Below the pieces are notes generated by a model, which did not search any database, had not been told where the DNA came from, and worked only from the letters and a program-made list of their open reading frames with translations. A stretch of 8,321 nt of DNA from Pseudomonadota bacterium (lineage in GTDB: Bacteria; Pseudomonadota; Gammaproteobacteria; Acidithiobacillales; Acidithiobacillaceae): contig JAKCBU010000033.1 of the NCBI GenBank assembly GCA_021839095.1, positions 1 to 8,321 of the forward strand, read 5' to 3'. The translations under genes and the position numbers were made by a program. Shown one piece after another: positions 1 through 8,284 of the stretch. Positions within the stretch are counted from its first letter, which is position 1. Every line of letters starts with the position of its first letter.

Positions 1-563
1 TCTCTAATATCAAGATTTCCTGGAGCAAGAACCGGATGCCCAGATTCCGCGTAGCTGCAACGACCTATTACATGATTATTTGATAAACCGAACAATTCAT
101 CGTTGATGCGAAGAAGGACTCCCAACGTACCAACGCCAAGACTGCCCCCAAGACCAATAGAGCTTCCGCACGTTATTCTATTATTATGCACATAGTGATT
201 TGGAGTGCCGATACTAGCAGGAGGCGTACCACCAACGTGCCCAATAGTTCCCTGCCGGTACTCTATACGGAATTCGTCTAATTGTGATGGCAAACTTTTT
301 ATTTGCTTCGCGGTAAATTTTTTATTTAGATAGGCTATAATAAGGCTTTCTTTTTGGTTAACGCTAATCGCGTGAACCTTTCTAGCATTGACCGCGCGAC
401 TTAAGGATGCGTCTAAATTTCCAAAGGTATCCTCAAAAAAATCTATGTACTCATCTTTCGTTGATATATCAGCAACCTGCGCGGCGGTGGCCGTTGGCGC
501 AAGCCCATGTCGAGCAGCCCATACGCGAAACGCGGCGCCAGCATCAAAGATGTTCGATGTCAT
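1..563 (-). CDS. Trypsin-like (Nal1-like) serine protease, N-terminal part, runs off left edge
   Basis: This open frame runs from ATG at 563 to the window edge, giving 187 residues with no stop. The start is supported by TTAGGAG at 569-575, spaced normally before it. Residues ~66-104 include SLIIAYLNKKF and a charged region, like the segment before the protease domain in bacterial Nal1-like trypsin-fold proteins. A Gly-rich stretch (GLGGSLGVGTLGVLLRI, ~137-153) leads into LFGLSNNHVIG (~158-167). Its His164 fits the catalytic histidine of the S1 fold, in the LSNNHV context typical of this group. It is followed by GHPVLAPGNLDI (~175-186), which resembles the family's GDPILQPG..D pattern. The catalytic Asp and Ser would lie beyond the edge, so activity cannot be judged. 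No signal peptide is visible, so the protein is probably cytoplasmic. Base composition is clearly AT-richer than the rest of the window, which suggests separately acquired cargo. Family assignment is from recalled motifs and is fairly confident; the substrate is unknown. Confidence 0.75.
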   Translation of the reverse strand, partial: MTSNIFDAGAAFRVWAARHGLAPTATAAQVADISTKDEYIDFFEDTFGNLDASLSRAVNARKVHAISVNQKESLIIAYLNKKFTAKQIKSLPSQLDEFRIEYRQGTIGHVGGTPPASIGTPNHYVHNNRITCGSSIGLGGSLGVGTLGVLLRINDELFGLSNNHVIGRCSYAESGHPVLAPGNLDIR

Positions 564-682: not shown

Positions 683-1990
683 CTATGCCCGATGCATGTT
701 CAAGTTCTGCTGCGCACCGAAGAAGGATTTGAGGGAGGCGAACAACCCTCCACTCACACCACCTTCCATATCAGGGAGTTTGCTGGCCGTTTGATGGACC
801 TTGGCGGCCTTCTCGGTCAACGCGGGGTCGGTCTTGCCGCCCTTCTTGTTCATATAAAATAGGGCGTCCTGGGCCTTGTCCACGCTGTCCTTGGCCTGGG
901 CGTAATGGGCGGATAGATCAGGATTGTTTCGGAGCAGGGCATCGGCATAGAGCGCCTTGGCACGGGCGGGCATTCCCTGCAAGCCTTCCATCTTCTGATA
1001 CTCCTGCACGGCGGGATGCCGGGCGATGGCGTCCAGATGGGCCTGCGCCCGGTCCATGTGGGCATGTGCCCGGTGCTGCCATTCCTCCGCGTCCGGCCCC
1101 TTGATGGCCTGAACCATGCTGCGCCCGGCGTTGGCCGTGTGCAGGAGCAACAAGGAAAGCAAGCCGATGTGTTGGTGAACGACTTGCTGCTGCCCATTCT
1201 GCTGCTGTGCGTTCTGCTTTTGCTCCGGCGTGTCGGGCTGCATCTTGGTTTCTTGCTTCGCTTCGGCTTGGGGCGCTGGCTGCACCCCGGCAGGGGGCTG
1301 CTCCCCGGCAGGGGGCAGGTCCAGCATATTCCGCAATTCGGCCAGACTGGAAAGCGTTTTGGGCGCTTCTACCGGCTGAGGAATATGGTTTTGCGCGATG
1401 TGATTTTTCAACTGATCGGCCAAGCCGGGTGTCAACGCCTGCCCGACCGGAACGGCATTACCATCCTGGTCGTGACGAAACACTCCAAAGCTCTGCGGGT
1501 CTTTTTCGTTGATTTTCCCATCCGCGCCCACTCCGGCCACAAAAAGCGGTTCGGTCGTCGGCGTGGCGTACCCCACCACGGCAGCCAATCGGTTGTGCGG
1601 GGACTCGTGCCCCTGATCCGGGCCGGTATAGAGCCGTTCCCGCAAGCCCTGATCGTTCAGGATTTCGAGACGCTGCCGCCAGTTGCCCGTGTCCTGGTTG
1701 TGCATGAGCACCCCGGTGCGCAACGTGTCGGGTGCGTCGGCGCGGCTGTAAAGCAGGGTCGCGCCTTCGGCCATCCCAGCAAGGTCGATGCCGCCCATGG
1801 GACTTGGAATTGGGGCGCGATCCGGTCCCAAAGGTTCCACCCTCTGCTCCCCCCCTATCGCGGCTCCCCTTCCGGCCAGTTCTTCCAGGCTTTTGGCTCC
1901 CTTGGCTCCGCCAATGGTTTCCGTAGGTTCGTCGATGATCCGAATGTTCCCGTCCATCTTCCTTGCTTCTACCGCATATTCCGCTGCCAT
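683..1990 (-). CDS. Hypothetical 435-aa protein with Pro/Gln-rich central linker
   Basis: I do not recognise this protein. The start at 1990 (MAAEYAVEAR) is chosen over the longer open frame from 2044 for two reasons: it has GGGAG in place, and the repeated leader element lies just upstream, as for other genes here. The N-terminal ~200 residues are soluble, with a segment of beta-domain appearance (SFGVFRHDQDGNAVPVG, ~167-183). A low-complexity linker at ~224-275 is rich in Pro, Ala and Gln, including two PPAG repeats and runs of Gln. A short hydrophobic stretch, GLLSLLLLHTANAG (~276-289), follows; it is too short for a clear membrane span. The last ~140 residues are helical and Ala/His/Gln-rich. 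Such linker-joined multidomain proteins are common on conjugative elements. It is transcribed divergently from the plus-strand cluster and shares its regulatory dyad. Function is unknown. Confidence 0.8.
   Translation of the reverse strand: MAAEYAVEARKMDGNIRIIDEPTETIGGAKGAKSLEELAGRGAAIGGEQRVEPLGPDRAPIPSPMGGIDLAGMAEGATLLYSRADAPDTLRTGVLMHNQDTGNWRQRLEILNDQGLRERLYTGPDQGHESPHNRLAAVVGYATPTTEPLFVAGVGADGKINEKDPQSFGVFRHDQDGNAVPVGQALTPGLADQLKNHIAQNHIPQPVEAPKTLSSLAELRNMLDLPPAGEQPPAGVQPAPQAEAKQETKMQPDTPEQKQNAQQQNGQQQVVHQHIGLLSLLLLHTANAGRSMVQAIKGPDAEEWQHRAHAHMDRAQAHLDAIARHPAVQEYQKMEGLQGMPARAKALYADALLRNNPDLSAHYAQAKDSVDKAQDALFYMNKKGGKTDPALTEKAAKVHQTASKLPDMEGGVSGGLFASLKSFFGAQQNLNMHRA
1281..1316. repeat. Two tandem copies of a GC-rich short repeat inside the 435-aa gene
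   Basis: TGCACCCCGGCAGGGGGC at 1281-1298 is followed by CCCCGGCAGGGGGC at 1303-1316. The core CCCC-GGCA-GGGG is a small inverted repeat. On the minus strand these encode the two PPAG units of the linker. The full 18-base version recurs exactly inside the ArdC-like gene at 4833-4850. Confidence 0.55.
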
Positions 1991-2017
1991 CGTGACTCTC
2001 CCGTTCGGTTGTACCTG

Positions 2018-2049
2018 CCAGGTGGTGCCGATTTTCGGCATCACCCTGG
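2018..2049. promoter_or_regulatory. Divergent dyad: two copies of the repeated leader sharing one palindromic centre
   Basis: The left arm CCAGGTGGTGCCGA (2018-2031) and right arm TCGGCATCACCCTGG (2035-2049) are near-perfect inverted repeats around TTT, with the exact core CCGATTTTCGG at 2028-2038. Read on the plus strand this is the leader of the gene starting at 2076; read on the minus strand it is the leader of the gene starting at 1990. In both directions about 14 bases separate the block from the ribosome binding site. An operator, or a bidirectional promoter element bound by a dimeric regulator, is the simplest reading. The binding protein is unknown. Confidence 0.55.
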
Positions 2050-2075
2050 CAGAACCTCACGAAAAGGAGATAGCG

Positions 2076-2417
2076 ATGGCTGTCGTGGCTCCCTGGCGTA
2101 CCCAATGGTGGGAATCCCGCCCCAAGCCGGATCAGGTGGAATCCTGGACCATCCGCGACCCGGAACTCCAACAGGTGGACGGCTTTCGCATCCTGCAAGA
2201 CCTGCTGAACCAGTCGGCCCCGCCTCACGATGCCCTGTCCTGGGCGCGAACCCTGATCTATCTGCCGGTCCTCGATGCGCTACCCATGATGGAGAAGCAC
2301 CCGCCCCTACCCGAAGCCTTCCCGCAACTCAATGAGCGGGAGCGCAACGTCCTCCAGACCCGGATTCAGGCGTTGCTCTGGACCAAAGTGCTGCACATGG
2401 GGAAAAAACATGCCTGA
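2076..2417 (+). CDS. Hypothetical protein, 113 aa
   Basis: The start at 2076 follows a strong ribosome binding site, AAAAGGAGA at 2063-2071, and the repeated leader. The frame stays open upstream to 1788, but that part is antisense to the 435-aa gene and has no comparable signal. The protein starts with a Trp-rich segment (APWRTQWWESRP, ~5-16). The rest is probably helical, with a moderately hydrophobic SWARTLIYLPVLDALPMM (~55-72) and a basic C-terminus (HMGKKHA). There is no signal peptide or recognisable motif. It is the first gene of the plus-strand cluster, and its stop lies only 10 bases before the next leader copy. Function is unknown; confidence that it is a real gene comes from the binding site, leader and spacing. 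Confidence 0.75.
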   Translation: MAVVAPWRTQWWESRPKPDQVESWTIRDPELQQVDGFRILQDLLNQSAPPHDALSWARTLIYLPVLDALPMMEKHPPLPEAFPQLNERERNVLQTRIQALLWTKVLHMGKKHA

Positions 2418-2426
2418 ATGGGTGCC

Positions 2427-2450
2427 GCGCAAAACCGGCATCACCCTGGT
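2427..2450 (+). promoter_or_regulatory. Repeated leader element, copy upstream of the small gene at 2478
   Basis: This is a diverged copy: GCGCAAAACCGGCATCACCC followed by TGGT. It lies just after the stop of the 113-aa gene, and about 15 bases later comes the binding site CGGAG (2466-2470) of the next gene. It matches the divergent copy in the CATCACCCTGG part and the other plus-strand copies in the TGGTAG/TGGTGA part. Confidence 0.6.
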
Positions 2451-2477
2451 AGAGACCCTTGATCCCGGAGATCCACC

Positions 2478-2636
2478 ATGGCCGATACCAGCGAAGCACA
2501 CAGAGAACTCTTGAGCGCCGTGCTGCGCCAAGCCATCGAGGAATCGCGCCGACCGACTCAGGCCGGGCACTCTGCTCGCCTGTGGCTGACACAATCTCCC
2601 GTAGCCCCCGCGCTTATTTCGTCCTGCTGGATATGA
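2478..2636 (+). pseudogene. Small hypothetical gene, probably frameshifted (52 aa as read; ~64 aa if restored to 2671)
   Basis: ATG at 2478 follows CGGAG (2466-2470) and a leader copy. As read it gives a 52-residue protein that begins MADTSEAHRELLSAVLRQAI, clearly helical and natural-looking, and ends in an atypical ALISSCWI at 2636. In the frame one base back, the sequence continues as SPRAYFVLLDMNPDEAIRR and stops at 2669-2671, directly before the next leader copy. Every other gene here ends just before its neighbour's leader, so 2671 looks like the original end. The 194 bases from 2478 to 2671 are one short of a multiple of three, which fits a single-base deletion in a 64-aa gene. The site of the shift cannot be fixed but should lie around 2570-2610. 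It could be mutation, a sequencing error or recoding, although I see no standard slippery heptamer. Function is unknown. Confidence 0.55.
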
Positions 2637-2672
2637 ACCCCGACGAAGCGATCCGCCGTCTGGCCGCCTGAG

Positions 2673-2697
2673 CGCGAAAAATCGGCACCACCCTGGT
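2673..2697 (+). promoter_or_regulatory. Repeated leader element, copy upstream of the antirepressor gene
   Basis: CGCGAAAAATCGGCACCACC followed by CTGGT. It matches the copy at 3643-3667 in 24 of 25 positions. It begins one base after a stop codon (2669-2671) and lies 14 bases before the AGGAG of the antirepressor gene. Internally, CACCA-CCC-TGGTG (2687-2698 plus the next base) is a small inverted repeat, and CGA-AAA-TCG resembles the core palindrome of the divergent copy. Confidence 0.7.
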
Positions 2698-2722
2698 GAA
2701 ACCACACACTCAGGAGACTGCC

Positions 2723-3541
2723 ATGTTGAACGCTTTGCTTCCCATCCAGACAACTGCTCTGGCCGACGAAGCCGTGCCCACCATCAATGCCCGCGACCTC
2801 CATGCTTTCCTTGGGGTGGGCAAACACTTTTCGACCTGGATCAAGGATAGGCTTGCCAAGATTGGTTTTGTTGAAGGACAAGACTATGTTTCTTTTGAAG
2901 GTTTGAGATCCCCCGTTTCGGGGAGCGCAAAAGCTCGCCCTCAGAAAACCATCGAATATCATCTCACCCTCGACACAGCCAAACACCTCGCCATGTTGGA
3001 ACGCACCCCCAAGGGGCACGAGGCTCGGCAATACTTCATCGCCTGTGAGAAGGAATATCGGCGGCTGCGGGATCAGCCCCCGGTGCAGCCAGCTAGCCAG
3101 CCCACCTTGAGCGAGCGGTATCTGAACGGCCTGCCCCATGAAACCGTGCTGGCCGAGTTCAAGCTGCTCATCGAACTCAACCGATTCAGTCCCGGCATGG
3201 ACGCCAATCAAGCCTTCCTGGGGGCGGTTGGGCAAATGGAAATGATGGGCGTGCAATTACGTCCCCTGCTGGCTCCCCAGGCTTTGGCCCTGGAGTCGCC
3301 CCATCGTTGCGCCGAACTGCGGCCTACGGACATCGCCCGGCGCTTCGGCATCCTGCGCCGGGACGGCAAGGAAGATGCCGCCGCCGTCAACCGGCTCTTG
3401 GCCGACCTGGGCTATCAGACGCGCACGGCCAGAGAAACACTGGCCTGGACGCCTACGGAGAAAGGCTGGCCCTTCGCCGTGGTCAAGGACGTGCCACGCG
3501 CCACGGTGCAAGGCGGGCGGCCCGTCCGGCAACTCTTTTAG
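2723..3541 (+). CDS. Phage-type antirepressor (AntA/AntB domain), C-terminus cut by an in-frame amber codon
   Basis: The start at 2723 has AGGAG at 2712-2716; a GTG at 2696 lies inside the leader and is rejected. The product is 272 residues. Residues ~18-115 match the AntA/AntB antirepressor domain: TINARDLHAFLGVGKHFSTW, then GFVEGQDYVSF, then YHLTLDTAKHLAMLERTPKG and a KEYRRLR end. Phage antirepressors of this type block repressors and switch gene expression. The C-terminal region (~210-272: LRPTDIARRFGI, AVNRLLADLGYQ, WTPTEKGWPFAV) resembles the usual second domain. That domain normally ends in a Leu-Lys-Trp-type motif plus a short tail. Here VRQLF is followed by TAG and the frame then stays open to 3640, so a Trp codon may have mutated to amber. 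It lies between two leader copies and may regulate this element, possibly through them (inference). Confidence 0.85.
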   Translation: MLNALLPIQTTALADEAVPTINARDLHAFLGVGKHFSTWIKDRLAKIGFVEGQDYVSFEGLRSPVSGSAKARPQKTIEYHLTLDTAKHLAMLERTPKGHEARQYFIACEKEYRRLRDQPPVQPASQPTLSERYLNGLPHETVLAEFKLLIELNRFSPGMDANQAFLGAVGQMEMMGVQLRPLLAPQALALESPHRCAELRPTDIARRFGILRRDGKEDAAAVNRLLADLGYQTRTARETLAWTPTEKGWPFAVVKDVPRATVQGGRPVRQLF

Positions 3542-3640
3542 AAGGATGGTCTGCTGGAGTGCGTCGCCCCTGTCCTCACCCGCCTGGGTGCTCAACGCAT
3601 GATCGCCACCAGCGATCAATTTTCACTGAGTTTGCAGTAG
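3542..3640 (+). pseudogene. In-frame C-terminal remnant of the antirepressor after an amber codon
   Basis: This is the same reading frame as the antirepressor after its TAG at 3539-3541. It encodes KDGLLECVAPVLTRLGAQRM and 12 further residues, then stops at 3638-3640, two bases before the next leader copy. A QLF-(W)-KDGLLECV joint would fit the family's usual Trp-containing end, and one base change (TGG to TAG) would explain the break. The other content of this ~100-bp gap is unremarkable. Confidence 0.5.
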
Positions 3641-3642
3641 AC

Positions 3643-3667
3643 CGCGAAAAATCGGCACCACCCAGGT
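3643..3667 (+). promoter_or_regulatory. Repeated leader element, copy upstream of the 55-aa gene
   Basis: CGCGAAAAATCGGCACCACC followed by CAGGT. It is identical to the copy at 2673-2697 except for one base (CCCAGG instead of CCCTGG). Similarity resumes at the binding site: CAGGAGATTGC here and CAGGAGACTGC there. It lies 13 bases before AGGAG of the 55-aa gene. Confidence 0.7.
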
Positions 3668-3694
3668 AGTCAACCCATTCAGGAGATTGCACCC

Positions 3695-3862
3695 ATGGAC
3701 TACCACACTCCCTTTCTGACCGGCGAACTGGCCGAAGACACCGGCATTCGCCTGGATGCAGCCGAGAACGATCAGGACGCCAAGCCCGTAGCCGAAGTGG
3801 ATGAGCACGGCAACCTGCTCGATGACCAGGGCCGGATTCTGGAGATCGGTCATGACGACTGA
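3695..3862 (+). CDS. Small acidic hypothetical protein, 55 aa, overlapping the ArdC-like gene
   Basis: ATG at 3695 is preceded by AGGAG (3681-3685) and the repeated leader. The 55-residue product is strongly acidic (MDYHTPFLTGELAEDTGIRL, then many Asp/Glu and an EIGHDD end) and has no signal peptide or membrane segment. Its stop (3860-3862) lies 11 bases inside the ArdC-like gene, so the two are probably translationally coupled. The segment DEHGNLLDDQGRILEIG contains a repeated G-N/R-L/I-L turn pattern. An acidic DNA mimic or a partner of ArdC is conceivable given the neighbour and charge, but the sequence does not show it. Function is unknown; confidence that the gene is real rests on its leader, binding site and coupling. 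Confidence 0.7.
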   Translation: MDYHTPFLTGELAEDTGIRLDAAENDQDAKPVAEVDEHGNLLDDQGRILEIGHDD

Positions 3863-5231
3863 AAAGAAAACGGCGGCGGAGATCGTCGCGGAGCAAATCA
3901 TCGACATGATTCACGATCCGTCCGGGGTGCCCTCCTGGCGCAAGCCGTGGACGCCGCCGCCCGGCCCGCGTCAGCCGGTCAACGCCTCGACCGAAAAAAA
4001 CTATCGCGGAGCCAACGCCATGGTTATGGCCTTTGGCAGATTTTGCGGACAACCAACGGTTTTTGCCACCTTCAATCAGTGGAAAGACCTGGGCGAAAAG
4101 GAAGGACTGAACCTGTTCGTCAAAAAGGGGGAGAAAAGCACCCCCATTCTGGTGCCCATTCTCAAGAAGGATGAAGAACATCTGGACGCAAACGGCGATC
4201 CGAAGCAGCGGCTCGTCGGCACCAAGCTGGCTTTCGGCTTTCACGTTTCCCAGATCACGGACGGCGAAGCCTTCTTTGAACGCAAGTATGGGGCCATTCC
4301 GGCTCCGCGATGGGACATGGATACCATCTGGCCGGTACTCAAGGAGCGTATCGGGCAAATCGCACCGCTGACCATGACCGCATCGGACAGGGCTTTTTAT
4401 CGGCACGGCTCCCATGAGATTTTCCTGCCGCAACCGGGCCAATTCGCGTCCGAGGCGGGATTCTATGGCACGGTGCTGCACGAACTCACCCACGCCACCG
4501 AACAACAGGACGAGGCGTTTCAAAACTCGATCAAGACCAACAAGCTCATTGGAAAGGACGAATACGCTTACTGTGAATTGCGGGCGGAATTGGGATCGCT
4601 GCTGCTCGCCCAGACCATGGGCCTACCCACGGAAGTCACGGAAGCGGCGTCCTACATCGAGGGGTGGGGCTTGAAGCATTTTGCCGAAGCCCACAAGGCG
4701 ATGATCCTGCAAGCAGCCAACTACGCGCAGAACGCCGTGGACATCGTTTGCACCCCGGAGTTCATGCTGGCCTTGCAGGAACGCCGCAACGCGGCGATTT
4801 CCGGCACTCTCGCGGCACCACATCCCCAGGGTTGCACCCCGGCAGGGGGCGACCTGTCCATCACGCCCGCCGACCTGGACGCCGGGAAACGCTACACCTT
4901 CACGTCCGATCCGGGGCACGGCTGGCTGGTGGTTCCCACGTCCGACATCGCCCAACTGGGTATCGCCCAGGACATCAGCATTTGCTCCTATCTGTCGCCA
5001 CGCGGCGGCAAAGCCTATCTGGAGGAAGATTGCGACGCGCCCCGGTTCGTGACCGCCTACGCGGAGCATTACGGCATAGATGAAGATGCGCTTTGGAAGA
5101 AGATCGCCATCACCAACAACATCGACCGGCAAGCCACCTGCCGCTCCTATGACCACTTCGATCCCGAGCGGATTCCAGGCCCATCCGTTCCGGCACATCA
5201 GGAAACCTTCGCCCTTGGGAGTCATCCATGA
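3852..5231 (+). CDS. ardC: ArdC-like antirestriction protein with zincin metallopeptidase domain
   Basis: The 459-residue product starts at 3852 (MTTEKKTAAE), with GGAG at 3841-3844. The longer frame from 3801 is rejected because it lies wholly within the 55-aa gene and lacks such a site. The N-terminal part (~1-130) matches the ArdC ssDNA-binding domain: WRKPW near 29-33, YRGANAMVMAF near 51-61, FATFNQWKDLG near 71-81, VKKGEKSTPIL near 90-100. The second domain is an MPTase-PolyVal-type zincin with HELTH at 210-214 (His210, Glu211, His214) and a probable third ligand in CELRAELGSLL (Glu242 or Glu246). Beyond ~335 an extra C-terminal part (GHGWLVVP, YLEEDCDAPRF) resembles a small domain of polyvalent mobile-element proteins (DUF7007-like, from memory). 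Known ArdC proteins bind single-stranded DNA and protect incoming conjugative DNA from restriction. It overlaps both neighbours. Confidence 0.88.
   Translation: MTTEKKTAAEIVAEQIIDMIHDPSGVPSWRKPWTPPPGPRQPVNASTEKNYRGANAMVMAFGRFCGQPTVFATFNQWKDLGEKEGLNLFVKKGEKSTPILVPILKKDEEHLDANGDPKQRLVGTKLAFGFHVSQITDGEAFFERKYGAIPAPRWDMDTIWPVLKERIGQIAPLTMTASDRAFYRHGSHEIFLPQPGQFASEAGFYGTVLHELTHATEQQDEAFQNSIKTNKLIGKDEYAYCELRAELGSLLLAQTMGLPTEVTEAASYIEGWGLKHFAEAHKAMILQAANYAQNAVDIVCTPEFMLALQERRNAAISGTLAAPHPQGCTPAGGDLSITPADLDAGKRYTFTSDPGHGWLVVPTSDIAQLGIAQDISICSYLSPRGGKAYLEEDCDAPRFVTAYAEHYGIDEDALWKKIAITNNIDRQATCRSYDHFDPERIPGPSVPAHQETFALGSHP
4833..4850. repeat. Third copy of the GC-rich short repeat, inside the ArdC-like gene
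   Basis: TGCACCCCGGCAGGGGGC is identical over 18 bases to 1281-1298, although the two genes are unrelated and on opposite strands. It encodes CTPAGG at the linker between the zincin domain and the C-terminal extension, so both host sites are interdomain linkers. Confidence 0.55.
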
Positions 5232-5785
5232 AGAAAATGACCTTTACCCTGTGCATCGCTCTCCTGGCCGCGCCGGTGGCGGCTGCCGCCGCGCCCTGCG
5301 ATCCAAGTTGCCCGACCTGCCAGAACGCCATCAACACCTTCCAGAAGCAGGCGCAGGAAACCCTCGCCGTCGCAACGCCGCCGAATCCCCAAAACGAGGT
5401 CAATAGCGATACCTGCCTGGGTAATGCGCTCAACTTTTCCCTAAGCGATATGTTTCCCTCCAGCGTGTCGAGCCTCATTCAACAACTGGAAAAAGAGGTC
5501 TTTCAGGCGGCTTGCAGCGCGGCCAGCAGCGCGATCAGCAATACGGTATCCAAGGGAAACAGTTTGCTGAATTTCAATCTGCCCGCCAACGAGTTCTCTC
5601 AACTGACGGGCATGAGCAGCTTCAATCCGGTGCAGATTACCAGCAACAGCGGTGGCAGTTCGGGCATCACTTTCCAGAACAGCAGCCCGAATATCTGGAG
5701 CAACGCAGCCACTACCGCCGTCAGCAACGGGACCGGGGAAGCCGCCAGTCAGGTCAACAACTGGTACAACAATGTCTTGCCATAA
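5228..5785 (+). CDS. Exported Cys-containing hypothetical protein, 185 aa
   Basis: The ATG overlaps the ArdC-like stop (ATGA, 5228-5231), with GGGAG at 5218-5222, so translational coupling is likely. Residues 1-22 form a clear Sec signal peptide: MKKM, a hydrophobic core LCIALLAAPVAAAA, and an Ala-rich cleavage region. The mature protein begins with CDPSCPTC (Cys24, Cys28, Cys31), a tight cysteine cluster that could form disulfides or bind metal; it is not a thioredoxin CXXC followed by a thioredoxin fold. Further cysteines are at 63 and 96. The C-terminal half is rich in Ser, Asn and Gly (NSGGSSGITFQNSSPNIWSN region) and low in charge, as in surface-exposed or pilus-associated proteins. I do not recognise a family. 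Its place before two more exported proteins suggests an envelope function, perhaps in DNA transfer. Confidence 0.8.
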   Translation: MKKMTFTLCIALLAAPVAAAAAPCDPSCPTCQNAINTFQKQAQETLAVATPPNPQNEVNSDTCLGNALNFSLSDMFPSSVSSLIQQLEKEVFQAACSAASSAISNTVSKGNSLLNFNLPANEFSQLTGMSSFNPVQITSNSGGSSGITFQNSSPNIWSNAATTAVSNGTGEAASQVNNWYNNVLP

Positions 5786-5795
5786 GGAATTTGCC

Positions 5796-7025
5796 ATGTG
5801 GAAAAAAACGCTTTTTCTGGCGGTCGCCCTGGCGTTGAGCAATTCGGCCTGGGCTTTGGGGGAACAGCCGCAATCGCAGCCGATTGGGCCGGGAACCATG
5901 GTTGTTCCCGTAACCGGGTACTGCGCTGGTGGTTACTCCCAGGGGCAGGTCGCCACCCCGCAAAACATCAACGCCGCCGAGAGCGGCATCGTCAATGCGC
6001 TGGACATCATCTACTTCGATAATTGGGTGCCGCTGTTCGAGGCTGCGCAATCGAAGAATAACTCGGTGCGCAAGGATTTGACCCAGGGATTGGCGCTGGA
6101 CGTGAATACGGCCATGCAGAAGATCGAACAGGCCAAGGTTCGCGCCAATACTTATGCCGATGAACAGACCCCGCCCGGTATGCCCTGCGGCGCGGACGGT
6201 TGCACCGGCCAGCAAATGATGAGTTCGATCATCGCAGGTAGTAGTGGGGTGATGGGGTCCGCCAATCCCATCAGTGGCGCGGCGGCCCAGGTCAACTCCA
6301 CCAACGAGGCCGTAACCACCCCGCAAGACGCGTTCGGGGCCATCGTGACCTATCAGGCCCAATGCGGCAAATTCGCTTCGCAGGCGGAGATTACGGCGGG
6401 CGTCTGTCCGGGGGCCACAGTGAGCGTCAAACCCAACGCCGATCTGGATGGAAGCACCCTGCTTTCGGTGCCGAGCACGGCCAATAACGAGGCGCATCCC
6501 AAATTGGACGCCCAGGCGCGGGCGGCATTGGTCCATAACCTGACGGATACCATGCTGGTCGCCAAGCTCAAGAAACCCAACTACAAGACCGTCGAGGGCG
6601 AGACGGAGGCCGGACTGCAAATGTCGATGCAGGCCCGCCTGAATCTGGCCCGCACGGTGCTTTCCCAGGTGGAGGCCATGAAAGCTCCCATTACGGGTTT
6701 TGGACCGCAGGTGCAAAAGACGCTCAACAAGTCCTTGGGGGGGACGCCGCCCATCGCCTCCAACGCTTCACTGGATCAGGCGTTGGCCTGGGAGGACAAG
6801 GCCACTTACGGCAACCCGAAGTGGTACGTCAAGCTGCAAACCCTGCATAAAGCGGCCATTCAGAAACAGATGGTGCTCATGCAGGCCCAGGAGTTGCAGT
6901 ACCAGTATCTTGCCTTCCGGGAGCGCACCAATATCGAGGCGTTGATGGCCACCCTGGTCGCCCAACAGACGCAACAGGTCATGCGCAAGGAAGTCCAAAA
7001 TCAGGGTACCAATGCTGCGCAATAA
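5796..7025 (+). CDS. Exported hypothetical protein, 409 aa, first of two tandem paralogues
   Basis: The start at 5796 (MWKKTLFLAVALALSNSAWA) follows AAGGAA at 5784-5789, 10 bases after the previous stop. Upstream in-frame codons lie inside the preceding gene and are rejected. Residues 1-20 are a textbook signal peptide with an AWA cleavage site. Residues 21-70 are specific to this copy and include TGYCAGGYSQG (Cys43). From ~72 to the end it aligns without gaps to the next gene. Shared landmarks are YFDNWVPLFEAAQ, PPGMPCGADGC (Cys131, Cys136), AFGAIVTYQAQC (Cys190), AGVCP (Cys204), LVAKLKKPNY and TYGNPKWYVKL, plus a Gln-rich helical C-terminus (~350-409). Paired conserved cysteines suggest disulfides in the periplasm. 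I do not recognise a named family. A role in the envelope machinery of a mobile element is inference from context only. Confidence 0.85.
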   Translation: MWKKTLFLAVALALSNSAWALGEQPQSQPIGPGTMVVPVTGYCAGGYSQGQVATPQNINAAESGIVNALDIIYFDNWVPLFEAAQSKNNSVRKDLTQGLALDVNTAMQKIEQAKVRANTYADEQTPPGMPCGADGCTGQQMMSSIIAGSSGVMGSANPISGAAAQVNSTNEAVTTPQDAFGAIVTYQAQCGKFASQAEITAGVCPGATVSVKPNADLDGSTLLSVPSTANNEAHPKLDAQARAALVHNLTDTMLVAKLKKPNYKTVEGETEAGLQMSMQARLNLARTVLSQVEAMKAPITGFGPQVQKTLNKSLGGTPPIASNASLDQALAWEDKATYGNPKWYVKLQTLHKAAIQKQMVLMQAQELQYQYLAFRERTNIEALMATLVAQQTQQVMRKEVQNQGTNAAQ

Positions 7026-7035
7026 GGAGGGTGCC

Positions 7036-8142
7036 ATGCGACCATTATTGCGCAGTCTCCTGCTGGCGTTGATCGTTGCACCGGGAACCGCCTGTGCCAC
7101 CGGATTTACTACCGGCCTGAATGATCTGTATTTCGATCATTGGGTGCCTTTGTTCGAGGCGGCGCAAGCGAAGGACAACGCCGTGCGCAAGGACTTGACC
7201 GAAGGATTGGCCCTGGACTTCAACACGGCGGGCCAGAAGGTTCTACAGGCCAACGCGCGCGGCCAGACCTACGCCGACGAACAGGCCCCTCCGGGGATGC
7301 CCTGCGGGGCCAATGGCTGCACCGGGCAGCAAAGCCTTTCTGCGGTCATCGCCGGAAGTGAGGGGGTAATGGGAAGCGGCAACCCTGTCAGTGGCAACGC
7401 GGCCCAGGCCAGTCGCGCCGACCGGGCCATCACGACTCCCCAGGGGGCCTTTGGGGCCATCGTGACTTATCAGGCCCATTGCGGCCAGTTCGCGTCCCAG
7501 GCGGAGATCCAGGCAGGCGTATGCCCGTCTGCAACGGCCAGTCCAAAGCCCAATGCCGATCTCGACGGGTCTACGCTCCTGAGTGCCCCGAAAGTTGGCA
7601 GCGATCCGATTCATGCCAAGCTGGACGCCCAGGCACGAGCGGCCATCATTCACAACCTGACTGACACCATGCCGGTCGCCAAACTCAAGAAACCCAATTA
7701 CGGGACCGTGACGGGAGAAACCGGGGCCGGACTGCAAATGTCCATGCAAGCGCGGATGAACGTCGCCCAGACCATCCTTTCGCAAGTGGCCGCGATGCGG
7801 GCGCCGATTGCCGGATTCGGGCCACAGATGCAAAAGACGTTGAGCAAGAATCTGGGGGGCGTCCCCGCCATTGCCAATAATGCCTCATTGGATCAGGCGT
7901 TGTCCTGGCAGGATCAGGCGACATACGGAAATCCCAAGTGGTACTTCAAGCTGCAAAGCCTGCATGGCGCATCGGTGGAAAAGCAACGGCTGCTCATGGT
8001 CGCGGAGAAATTGCAGCACGATTATTTACGGTTTCGCATGGAAACCAATGAGGAAACGGCGCTGGCCACCATGCTCGCTCAACAGACCCAGGAAGTCATG
8101 CGGCATGAAGTAGAGCGACAAGGAACTGATACCGCGCAGTAA
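7036..8142 (+). CDS. Exported hypothetical protein, 368 aa, second tandem paralogue
   Basis: The start at 7036 has a strong AAGGAGG at 7024-7030, overlapping the stop of the previous gene region (stop 7023-7025). The first ~22 residues are a signal peptide (MRPLLRSLLLALIVAPGTAC). Cys20 sits near the cleavage site, but the preceding residues GTA do not form a convincing lipobox. Residues 31-368 match residues 72-409 of the upstream gene with a constant offset of 41. Identity is about 70% in the stretch I counted (43 of 61 around the cysteines). Cys90, Cys95, Cys149 and Cys163 correspond to its conserved cysteines. Both end in a GT-x-x-AQ tail. This copy lacks the ~40-residue N-terminal segment with Cys43. 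The pair arose by tandem duplication and has since diverged, and both signal peptides are intact. That suggests two kept, non-identical subunits. Function is unknown. Confidence 0.85.
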   Translation: MRPLLRSLLLALIVAPGTACATGFTTGLNDLYFDHWVPLFEAAQAKDNAVRKDLTEGLALDFNTAGQKVLQANARGQTYADEQAPPGMPCGANGCTGQQSLSAVIAGSEGVMGSGNPVSGNAAQASRADRAITTPQGAFGAIVTYQAHCGQFASQAEIQAGVCPSATASPKPNADLDGSTLLSAPKVGSDPIHAKLDAQARAAIIHNLTDTMPVAKLKKPNYGTVTGETGAGLQMSMQARMNVAQTILSQVAAMRAPIAGFGPQMQKTLSKNLGGVPAIANNASLDQALSWQDQATYGNPKWYFKLQSLHGASVEKQRLLMVAEKLQHDYLRFRMETNEETALATMLAQQTQEVMRHEVERQGTDTAQ

Positions 8143-8151
8143 AAATCGGCA
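8141..8151 (+). promoter_or_regulatory. Trimmed copy of the repeated leader before the small membrane-protein frame
   Basis: AAAAATCGGCA matches the leader core of the copies at 2677 and 3647 exactly. It overlaps the stop of the preceding gene and is followed at once by TAGGAG and the ATG at 8166. The CACCCTGG half is missing, so this is either a shortened version or a chance match. Confidence 0.4.
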
Positions 8152-8165
8152 TAGGAGTTACCGCA

Positions 8166-8284
8166 ATGAGCACAGTCTAAAGTCTGTCTTTTACCGTTTT
8201 GACCTGTTGGGATGGGCTTTTTTAGCCGCTGAAATAGTGATCGGTGCTCCGCTCTGGAGCCTTTTGCATATCGGGAGAGAATAA
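8166..8284 (+). pseudogene. Small membrane protein gene broken by a one-base deletion (~39 aa if restored)
   Basis: ATG at 8166 has AGGAG at 8153-8157, but as read it stops after four codons (MSTV, TAA at 8178-8180). One frame back, starting with AGT at 8174, the sequence is open for 36 codons: SLKSVFYRFD, then a membrane-like LLGWAFLAAEIVIGAPLW and an HIGRE end, stopping at 8282-8284. That stop overlaps the next ATG as TAATG, a typical coupled junction, so this frame looks like the real one. The distance from 8166 to 8284 is 119 bases, one short of 40 codons. Loss of one base near AGCACAG (for example from AGCCACAG) would explain it. The intact product would be a single-span inner-membrane peptide of ~39 residues. 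Function is unknown; a sequencing error is possible. Confidence 0.55.

Follow-up and report, generated by a model that had tools for sequence, protein, structure and literature searches.

A start-linked sequence block before unrelated genes of a putative Acidithiobacillus conjugative element as a probable site of transcriptional control

Repeated upstream sequences of known elements and the block of this locus

For the CUP elements, Delver and Belogurov 1997 is reportedly the source that is cited. These conserved upstream sequences of IncN precede a number of genes, including antirestriction genes, and are bound by the repressor ArdK (accessible part of PMC6289460). In the pLS20 family, conserved sequences upstream of ardC and other operons define establishment regulons; in the parts of that report available to us, EGeRS1 of pLS20 measures 400–600 bp and contains many inverted repeats, and EGeRS2 of p576 is described as promoters with operators for a ribbon-helix-helix repressor, Reg, on either side (PMC8708921). 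A third kind is found in cluster K mycobacteriophages, whose SAS and ESAS are short, asymmetric, mostly in one orientation and fixed in place before unrelated genes. According to the accessible sections of these reports, SAS has the sequence GGGATAGGAGCCC, includes the ribosome binding site and lies 3–9 bp from the start, while ESAS, found just upstream of some SAS, is an imperfect inverted repeat of 15–17 bp in each copy and carries SigA-like hexamers (PMC3203893, PMC11373665, PMC12699233).

In the window, that is, the whole stretch of 8,321 bases analysed here, an asymmetric 20-base block, roughly AAAAYCGGCAYCACCCWGGT, precedes five gene starts, four on the plus strand and one on the minus strand. 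A preliminary description of this DNA had proposed a repeated leader before several genes; the leader is real and its coordinates were confirmed. The copies, with the position of their CGG and its distance to the ATG, are as follows.

2018..2038, minus strand: copy M, CCGAAAATCGGCACCACCTGG, with one C fewer; CGG at 2030, 40 bases to the ATG; overlaps copy A
2028..2049, plus strand: copy A, CCGATTTTCGGCATCACCCTGG; CGG at 2036, 40 bases to the ATG
2017..2049: inverted repeat formed by M and A, inside the 85-base gap 1991–2075 with its two divergent starts
2427..2450, plus strand: copy B; CGG at 2436, 42 bases to the ATG
2673..2697, plus strand: copy C; CGG at 2683, 40 bases to the ATG
3643..3667, plus strand: copy D; CGG at 3653, 42 bases to the ATG; one of 25 bases differs from C, as first described
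8142..8151, plus strand: AAAATCGGCA only, at a background score; a doubtful remnant or a chance match

The genes around them are listed in the same way.

6..563, minus strand: gene truncated by the window edge; its protein matches PHROG 25502 (E 1.7e-21)
683..1990, minus strand: gene M, 435 aa, behind copy M; start at 1990 predicted from its binding site
2076..2417, plus strand: gene 1, 113 aa, behind copy A
2478..2671, plus strand: gene 2, behind copy B, with a 52-aa frame from its start
2723..3541, plus strand: antirepressor gene, 272 aa with an AntA domain, behind copy C
3695..3862, plus strand: 55-aa gene, behind copy D, overlapping ardC by 11 bases
3852..5231, plus strand: ardC, an ArdC-type antirestriction gene with no block of its own
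5228..8142, plus strand: run of three genes after ardC (gaps of −4, 10 and 10), with no block

All five copies are intergenic, 637 of the 8,321 window bases being counted as such, and the strand of the block is that of its gene in each case. The GGAG begins 29–31 bases past the CGG, which is 15–17 bases past the last G of the core and agrees with the 13–15 bases formerly given to the five-base binding site. B, C and D stand in register as approximately nCGCGMAAAAYCGGCAYCACCCWGGT, with CGCGC ahead of AAAAC in B. The core as originally written, CGAAAAATCGG, holds exactly in C and D only, since B has CGCAAAACCGG at this position, A has CCGATTTTCGG and M has CCGAAAATCGG with one C fewer on the right. 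The AT stretch reads AAAA in B, C, D and M and TTTT in A. While the five copies first described are all in place, A and M are the overlapping arms of one inverted repeat and hence not wholly independent.

When compared to the known systems, the block shares with the CUP elements that several conserved copies stand before unrelated genes of one element. The CUP site is, however, defined in the available description by a 13-base consensus and EMSA, whereas our block is likened to it by description and not by sequence, and no TrfB/ArdK-type repressor was found among the ten window proteins (Pfam and NCBIfam, E 0.1). With the EGeRS it shares that the same sequence heads the ardC operon, here through copy D and the 55-aa/ardC run, as well as other units; against the size and repeats described for EGeRS1, the block has about 20 bp and lies 40–42 bases from the ATG. 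The likeness to SAS and ESAS lies in the short, asymmetric, start-linked and mostly uniformly oriented form. In sequence the block differs from SAS as described, and its core ends 15–17 bases before the GGAG instead of including it; the inverted repeats described for each ESAS copy are seen here in A/M only, partly in B and at chance level in C and D, and hexamers of the SigA kind are absent from the copies in a sigma-70 scan at chance level. By analogy, the block may in its working be most like CUP and EGeRS2, and we claim membership in none of these groups.

Conservation of the core and its occurrence beyond the window

The strict pattern CGGCAYCACCCWGG-N12..18-GGAG-N4..10-ATG has four matches in the window and none in any of 200 dinucleotide shuffles (mean 0.00). 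A weight matrix was built from the four plus-strand copies, with M held out and 100 first-order random sequences as null. Copies C, D, B and A score 33.1, 31.7, 30.5 and 26.2 bits and the held-out M scores 16.2 bits, while the next-best place of the window reaches 8.6 bits and the best scores of the random sequences (n = 100) have 10.0 as their median and 15.2 as their 95th percentile and reach 19.6 at most. M is borderline on score alone and is backed by its intergenic place and its 40 bases to the start. The trimmed sixth copy formerly placed at 8141 did not hold up: AAAATCGGCA is exact there, yet it scores 4.2 bits and ranks 20th, which is background. Past the stop at 8142 come a binding site, a frame of four codons (MSTV) and then about 100 bases up to the next start, and a gene has perhaps been lost from 8143–8283.

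Identity among A–D is 92% in the core, 36% in the 15 bases that follow and 24% in the preceding DNA; when B, C and D alone are compared the spacer is at 31%, against a core at 90–92%. As the core was chosen for its likeness, the informative part of this comparison is the near-random flanks at the same spacing. Since the flanks are near random while the core agrees, the core looks to be under selection and the whole leaders do not look like recent duplicates. An all-against-all BLASTP of nine window proteins (E ≤ 1) returned the 5796/7036 pair only, both of them blockless. These identities and the BLASTP result bear out the original view that the genes behind the block are unrelated and that the block is a shared control device and not a trace of gene duplication. 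The two genes of that pair, 5796–7025 and 7036–8142, are adjacent paralogues with 70% identity over 350 residues. Both kinds recur on contigs of equal size (e.g. 6911, 4998, 23768 and 18152), so the pair has probably been kept.

The block stands before five of the seven starts with gaps of more than 40 bases and before none of the four at tight or overlapping junctions (p 0.045, with a lower true weight because a single gap serves both gene M and gene 1). The five are the starts of gene M, gene 1, gene 2, the antirepressor gene and the 55-aa gene; the long gaps lacking it belong to the minus-strand gene 6–563 and the start at 8284, and the tight junctions to ardC, 5228, 5796 and 7036. Hence, the block marks the heads of units and not every ribosome binding site.

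Beyond the window, 154 proteins were fetched, and the homologues of the antirepressor were 120 listed of 928. One of these, P0039 (78% and 80% in two comparisons; contig of up to 11,028 bases), has a predicted start that lies ahead of the usual site, so that MKIGITLVSSPIQEIAM precedes the latter; leader C of the window, in the same frame, gives KIGTTLVKPHTQETAM. As protein, the leader reads KIGITLV SSP IQEIAM in P0039 and KIGTTLV KPH TQETAM in C; the seven block residues fit at the same 40-base distance and the spacer differs. Across 42,552 positions of the fetched proteins, K-I-G-[IT]-T-L-V at five or more of seven residues was otherwise matched just by the window's own two leader translations. 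The leader on this other contig thus appears, by the indirect route of its translation, to bear the block at the same distance; such leaders are visible only where a start is annotated upstream in this frame, and P0039 is a single case from the 120 homologues listed out of 928. Read into the gene, the leaders of A, C, D and M have an open frame and that of B meets a stop, and B and D use a different frame over the block. Given the different frames and the stop in B, the block shows no conservation at the protein level.

The relatives of the antirepressor at 13 distant viral loci have no block at up to three mismatches and one place at four (L130). Block patterns found 8, 5 and 0 stretches in three scans of viral contigs, and we regard these 13 stretches as chance matches, with one block each and several identical across contigs; five of them fit block-GGAG-ATG by construction, and in each of these five the block lies within at least one open frame. 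The pattern AAAAYCGGCAYCACCCNGG proved too loose, matching at least 119 stretches of genome contigs in many phyla, with no Acidithiobacillus title among the matches listed. A 15-base piece of the block at up to one mismatch is matched in all of ten unrelated genomes (59 matches, two of them exact, against 15 for the backward control); since it is not rare in ordinary genomes, a short match alone proves nothing. A 71-base leader met four plasmid records, with E values near 6. A text search of the accessible open-access literature with three 13-base pieces of the block led to three papers, which by title and abstract treat unrelated subjects. The first impression that no described element has this sequence thus stands for the sequence, which is new as far as these searches reach, and not for the kind, which is already known from CUP, EGeRS and SAS/ESAS.

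Action of the block as DNA or RNA

We favour, with moderate confidence, a reading of the block as a DNA site of transcription control, be it a promoter plus operator or an operator over a promoter, that heads separate units in the accessory or establishment part of a conjugative element. The constant strand and the near-constant start distance are counterpoints to it, as a promoter requires neither, and so are the missing core base of M and the two of seven long gaps that lack the block. The fixed distance, taken in the preliminary description as a sign of a role in the transcript or at the start site, fits a minimal uniform leader just as well as a role in the transcript.

The main rival, possible though rather unlikely in our estimate, is an unstructured RNA site, in which the block would belong to the 5′ leader, ahead of the ribosome binding site, and a protein or a small RNA would bind it in single-stranded form and thereby control translation or stability. 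The common strand of block and gene in all five copies fits such a site, as do the GGAG 29–31 and the ATG 40–42 bases past the CGG, and the plus strand of 2021–2035 is a 15-base perfect complement to C and D, so that pairing of other leaders with an RNA made from this stretch is conceivable. Against recognition in the transcript stand the folding results. A consensus fold of the five leaders gave −0.34 kcal/mol with two pairs and no covariation, from a MAFFT alignment that leaves the missing base of M unplaced; the single folds differ, with z values of −2.41 (A), −0.52 (B), −1.74 (C), −0.45 (D) and −0.54 (M); and Rfam returned two matches (E 0.55 and 0.64), both of them away from the block and below the gathering score. 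For comparison with single-strand DNA promoters of the Frpo type, whose mark is a hairpin with promoter hexamers in its stem, short folds were computed with RNA parameters: copies A, M and B form a hairpin at the block, D forms one of three pairs, and C folds differently. The exchange of AAAA for TTTT in A is neutral for DNA and odd for RNA recognition, and a DNA site therefore fits better.

The 85-base divergent gap bears on the same question, as it contains little beyond two opposed copies, leaders and binding sites. Two opposed copies in a divergent gap are a usual arrangement of a two-way promoter or operator. For a transcript-level element, each transcript would need to start inside the leader of the other gene, and a promoter placed upstream of either copy would fall within the leader of the opposite gene. 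As for the form of a DNA site, a second half-site is present in A/M, partial in B and at chance level in C and D: the 8-base left arm has p values of 0.025 for B and 0.58 for C and D, and the 15-base arm of 0.21 for B, 0.53 for C and 0.85 for D. A plain dimer operator was rejected on account of this weak or missing second half-site in B, C and D. No sigma-70-like site was found at the copies, but the strict scan found two in the window against 3.2 expected by chance, so that this negative carries little weight.

Less probable than an RNA site, and in our view improbable, is that the block forms a promoter class of its own, namely a complete asymmetric promoter of 20–23 bases for a sigma factor or RNA polymerase that the element itself encodes, transcription beginning at or just after the terminal GG. 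Such a start would yield the same very short leader each time and thereby explain the strict orientation and the fixed 40–42 bases.

We give slightly less credence still to leader modules that were spread by recombination together with their genes, the fixed distance then reflecting common descent. The single difference between C and D would agree with this, and pLS20 plasmids are described in the available text as having recurrent upstream DNA ahead of cargo genes that vary. Descent alone would not, however, keep a core at 90–92% identity next to spacers at 36% (31% among B, C and D).

A host sigma-54 promoter with a very short leader is highly improbable. We take CGGCAC to resemble the sigma-54 −24 box, and A has GG-N10-GC, but this is the case in one of five copies, with GT in B, C and D and CA in M, and the conserved stretch is longer than sigma-54 requires. 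Conservation of sigma-54 in Acidithiobacillia is reported in the accessible part of PMC12194929. Equally remote are sites resembling the stoperators of L5 type, in which a repressor stops elongation between genes (13-bp sites of transcription regulation in the available text of PMC3203893): the block is likewise asymmetric, gene-directed and intergenic, yet its fixed closeness to starts and the opposed divergent pair would seem to fit initiation better.

A putative establishment-type regulon and the genes it would serve

Where homologues of the 368- and 409-aa proteins carry a species name, it is A. ferriphilus, A. caldus or A. thiooxidans. Two of the three genes after ardC have distant relatives near DotA/TraY in plasmids, namely of Pseudomonas, one typed MPF_I, and of Roseomonas, and ArdC and AntA domains are present in the window. 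On the basis of these homologues, neighbours and domains, the window looks like part of an Acidithiobacillus conjugative element; no relaxase was identified in it. The A. thiooxidans homologues of gene 1 (HF670_05160) and of the 409-aa protein (HF670_05140) each have a longest contig of 2,800,235 bases and, judged by tags and lengths, probably lie in the same neighbourhood, in an integrated element.

A window-wide megablast against plasmids had no match, and a distant search of 1900–5300 met one 82-base piece in a Methylomagnum antirepressor gene. The A1 peptide patterns, two per scan, had no match in genome contigs or viral contigs, and A1 was matched in 0/4 and 0/3 genomes. Relatives of gene M were absent from the viral contigs, plasmids and phages searched, and those of gene 1 from the viral contigs. 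Among 274 gammaproteobacterial genomes, the antirepressor P0047 had one match, to the AntA part only. The sulfur oxygenase reductase family was matched in 11 of 369 gammaproteobacterial genomes, 10 of them above the cut-off, and none was identified as Acidithiobacillus by its neighbouring frames; a 16S signature was matched in none of the 369.

Several of the genes show features of their own. Gene M has no Pfam, NCBIfam or PHROG match at E 0.1, and gene 1 has eight homologues of 111–115 aa, one of them named Acidithiobacillus thiooxidans. In gene 2 a second frame ends at 2671, just before copy C, and a frameshift is possible. The antirepressor has 272 aa, while its closest homologue P0035 (98% identical) has 305 aa and other close full-length ones examined have 297–317 aa, so the window protein looks shortened by an in-frame stop. 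In the closer homologues (P0035–P0060) the C-terminal half is well conserved, whereas the centre of the AntA half comes in alternative versions, as though segments had been swapped. The protein of 6–563 additionally has a weaker match to a protease family (E 4.5e-05).

Overall, the block is a genuine start-linked control site that is apparently under selection, probably transcriptional and probably belongs to an establishment-type regulon, for which the ArdC in the run behind D and the conjugation-type neighbours speak. We infer that a single regulator encoded on the element would bind the asymmetric 20-base block and thereby control all the units jointly, these being gene M, gene 1, gene 2, the antirepressor gene and the run from the 55-aa gene through ardC into the conjugation genes. 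If ArdK/CUP and Reg/p576 are taken as models, the units would probably be repressed in the established cell and expressed in a burst after transfer, until the repressor has built up. The antirepressor gene itself bears the block (copy C), and the model of its protein has DNA-binding-like parts; our guess that the antirepressor may be the regulator of the block comes from these two points.

If this reading is true, one 20-base sequence tags the set of genes activated jointly by such an element. A block that stands apart from the ribosome binding site at a fixed distance would also offer a clean test of DNA versus RNA action for start-linked repeats, a question still open for those of mycobacteriophages in the accessible parts of the reports (PMC3203893, PMC12699233, PMC11373665). 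Candidate anti-defence or entry genes of acidophile elements, here gene 1, gene M and the gene of the 55-aa protein, could then be listed by position alone, as genes have been listed by upstream sequence for p576 and pLS20 in the available text on these plasmids.
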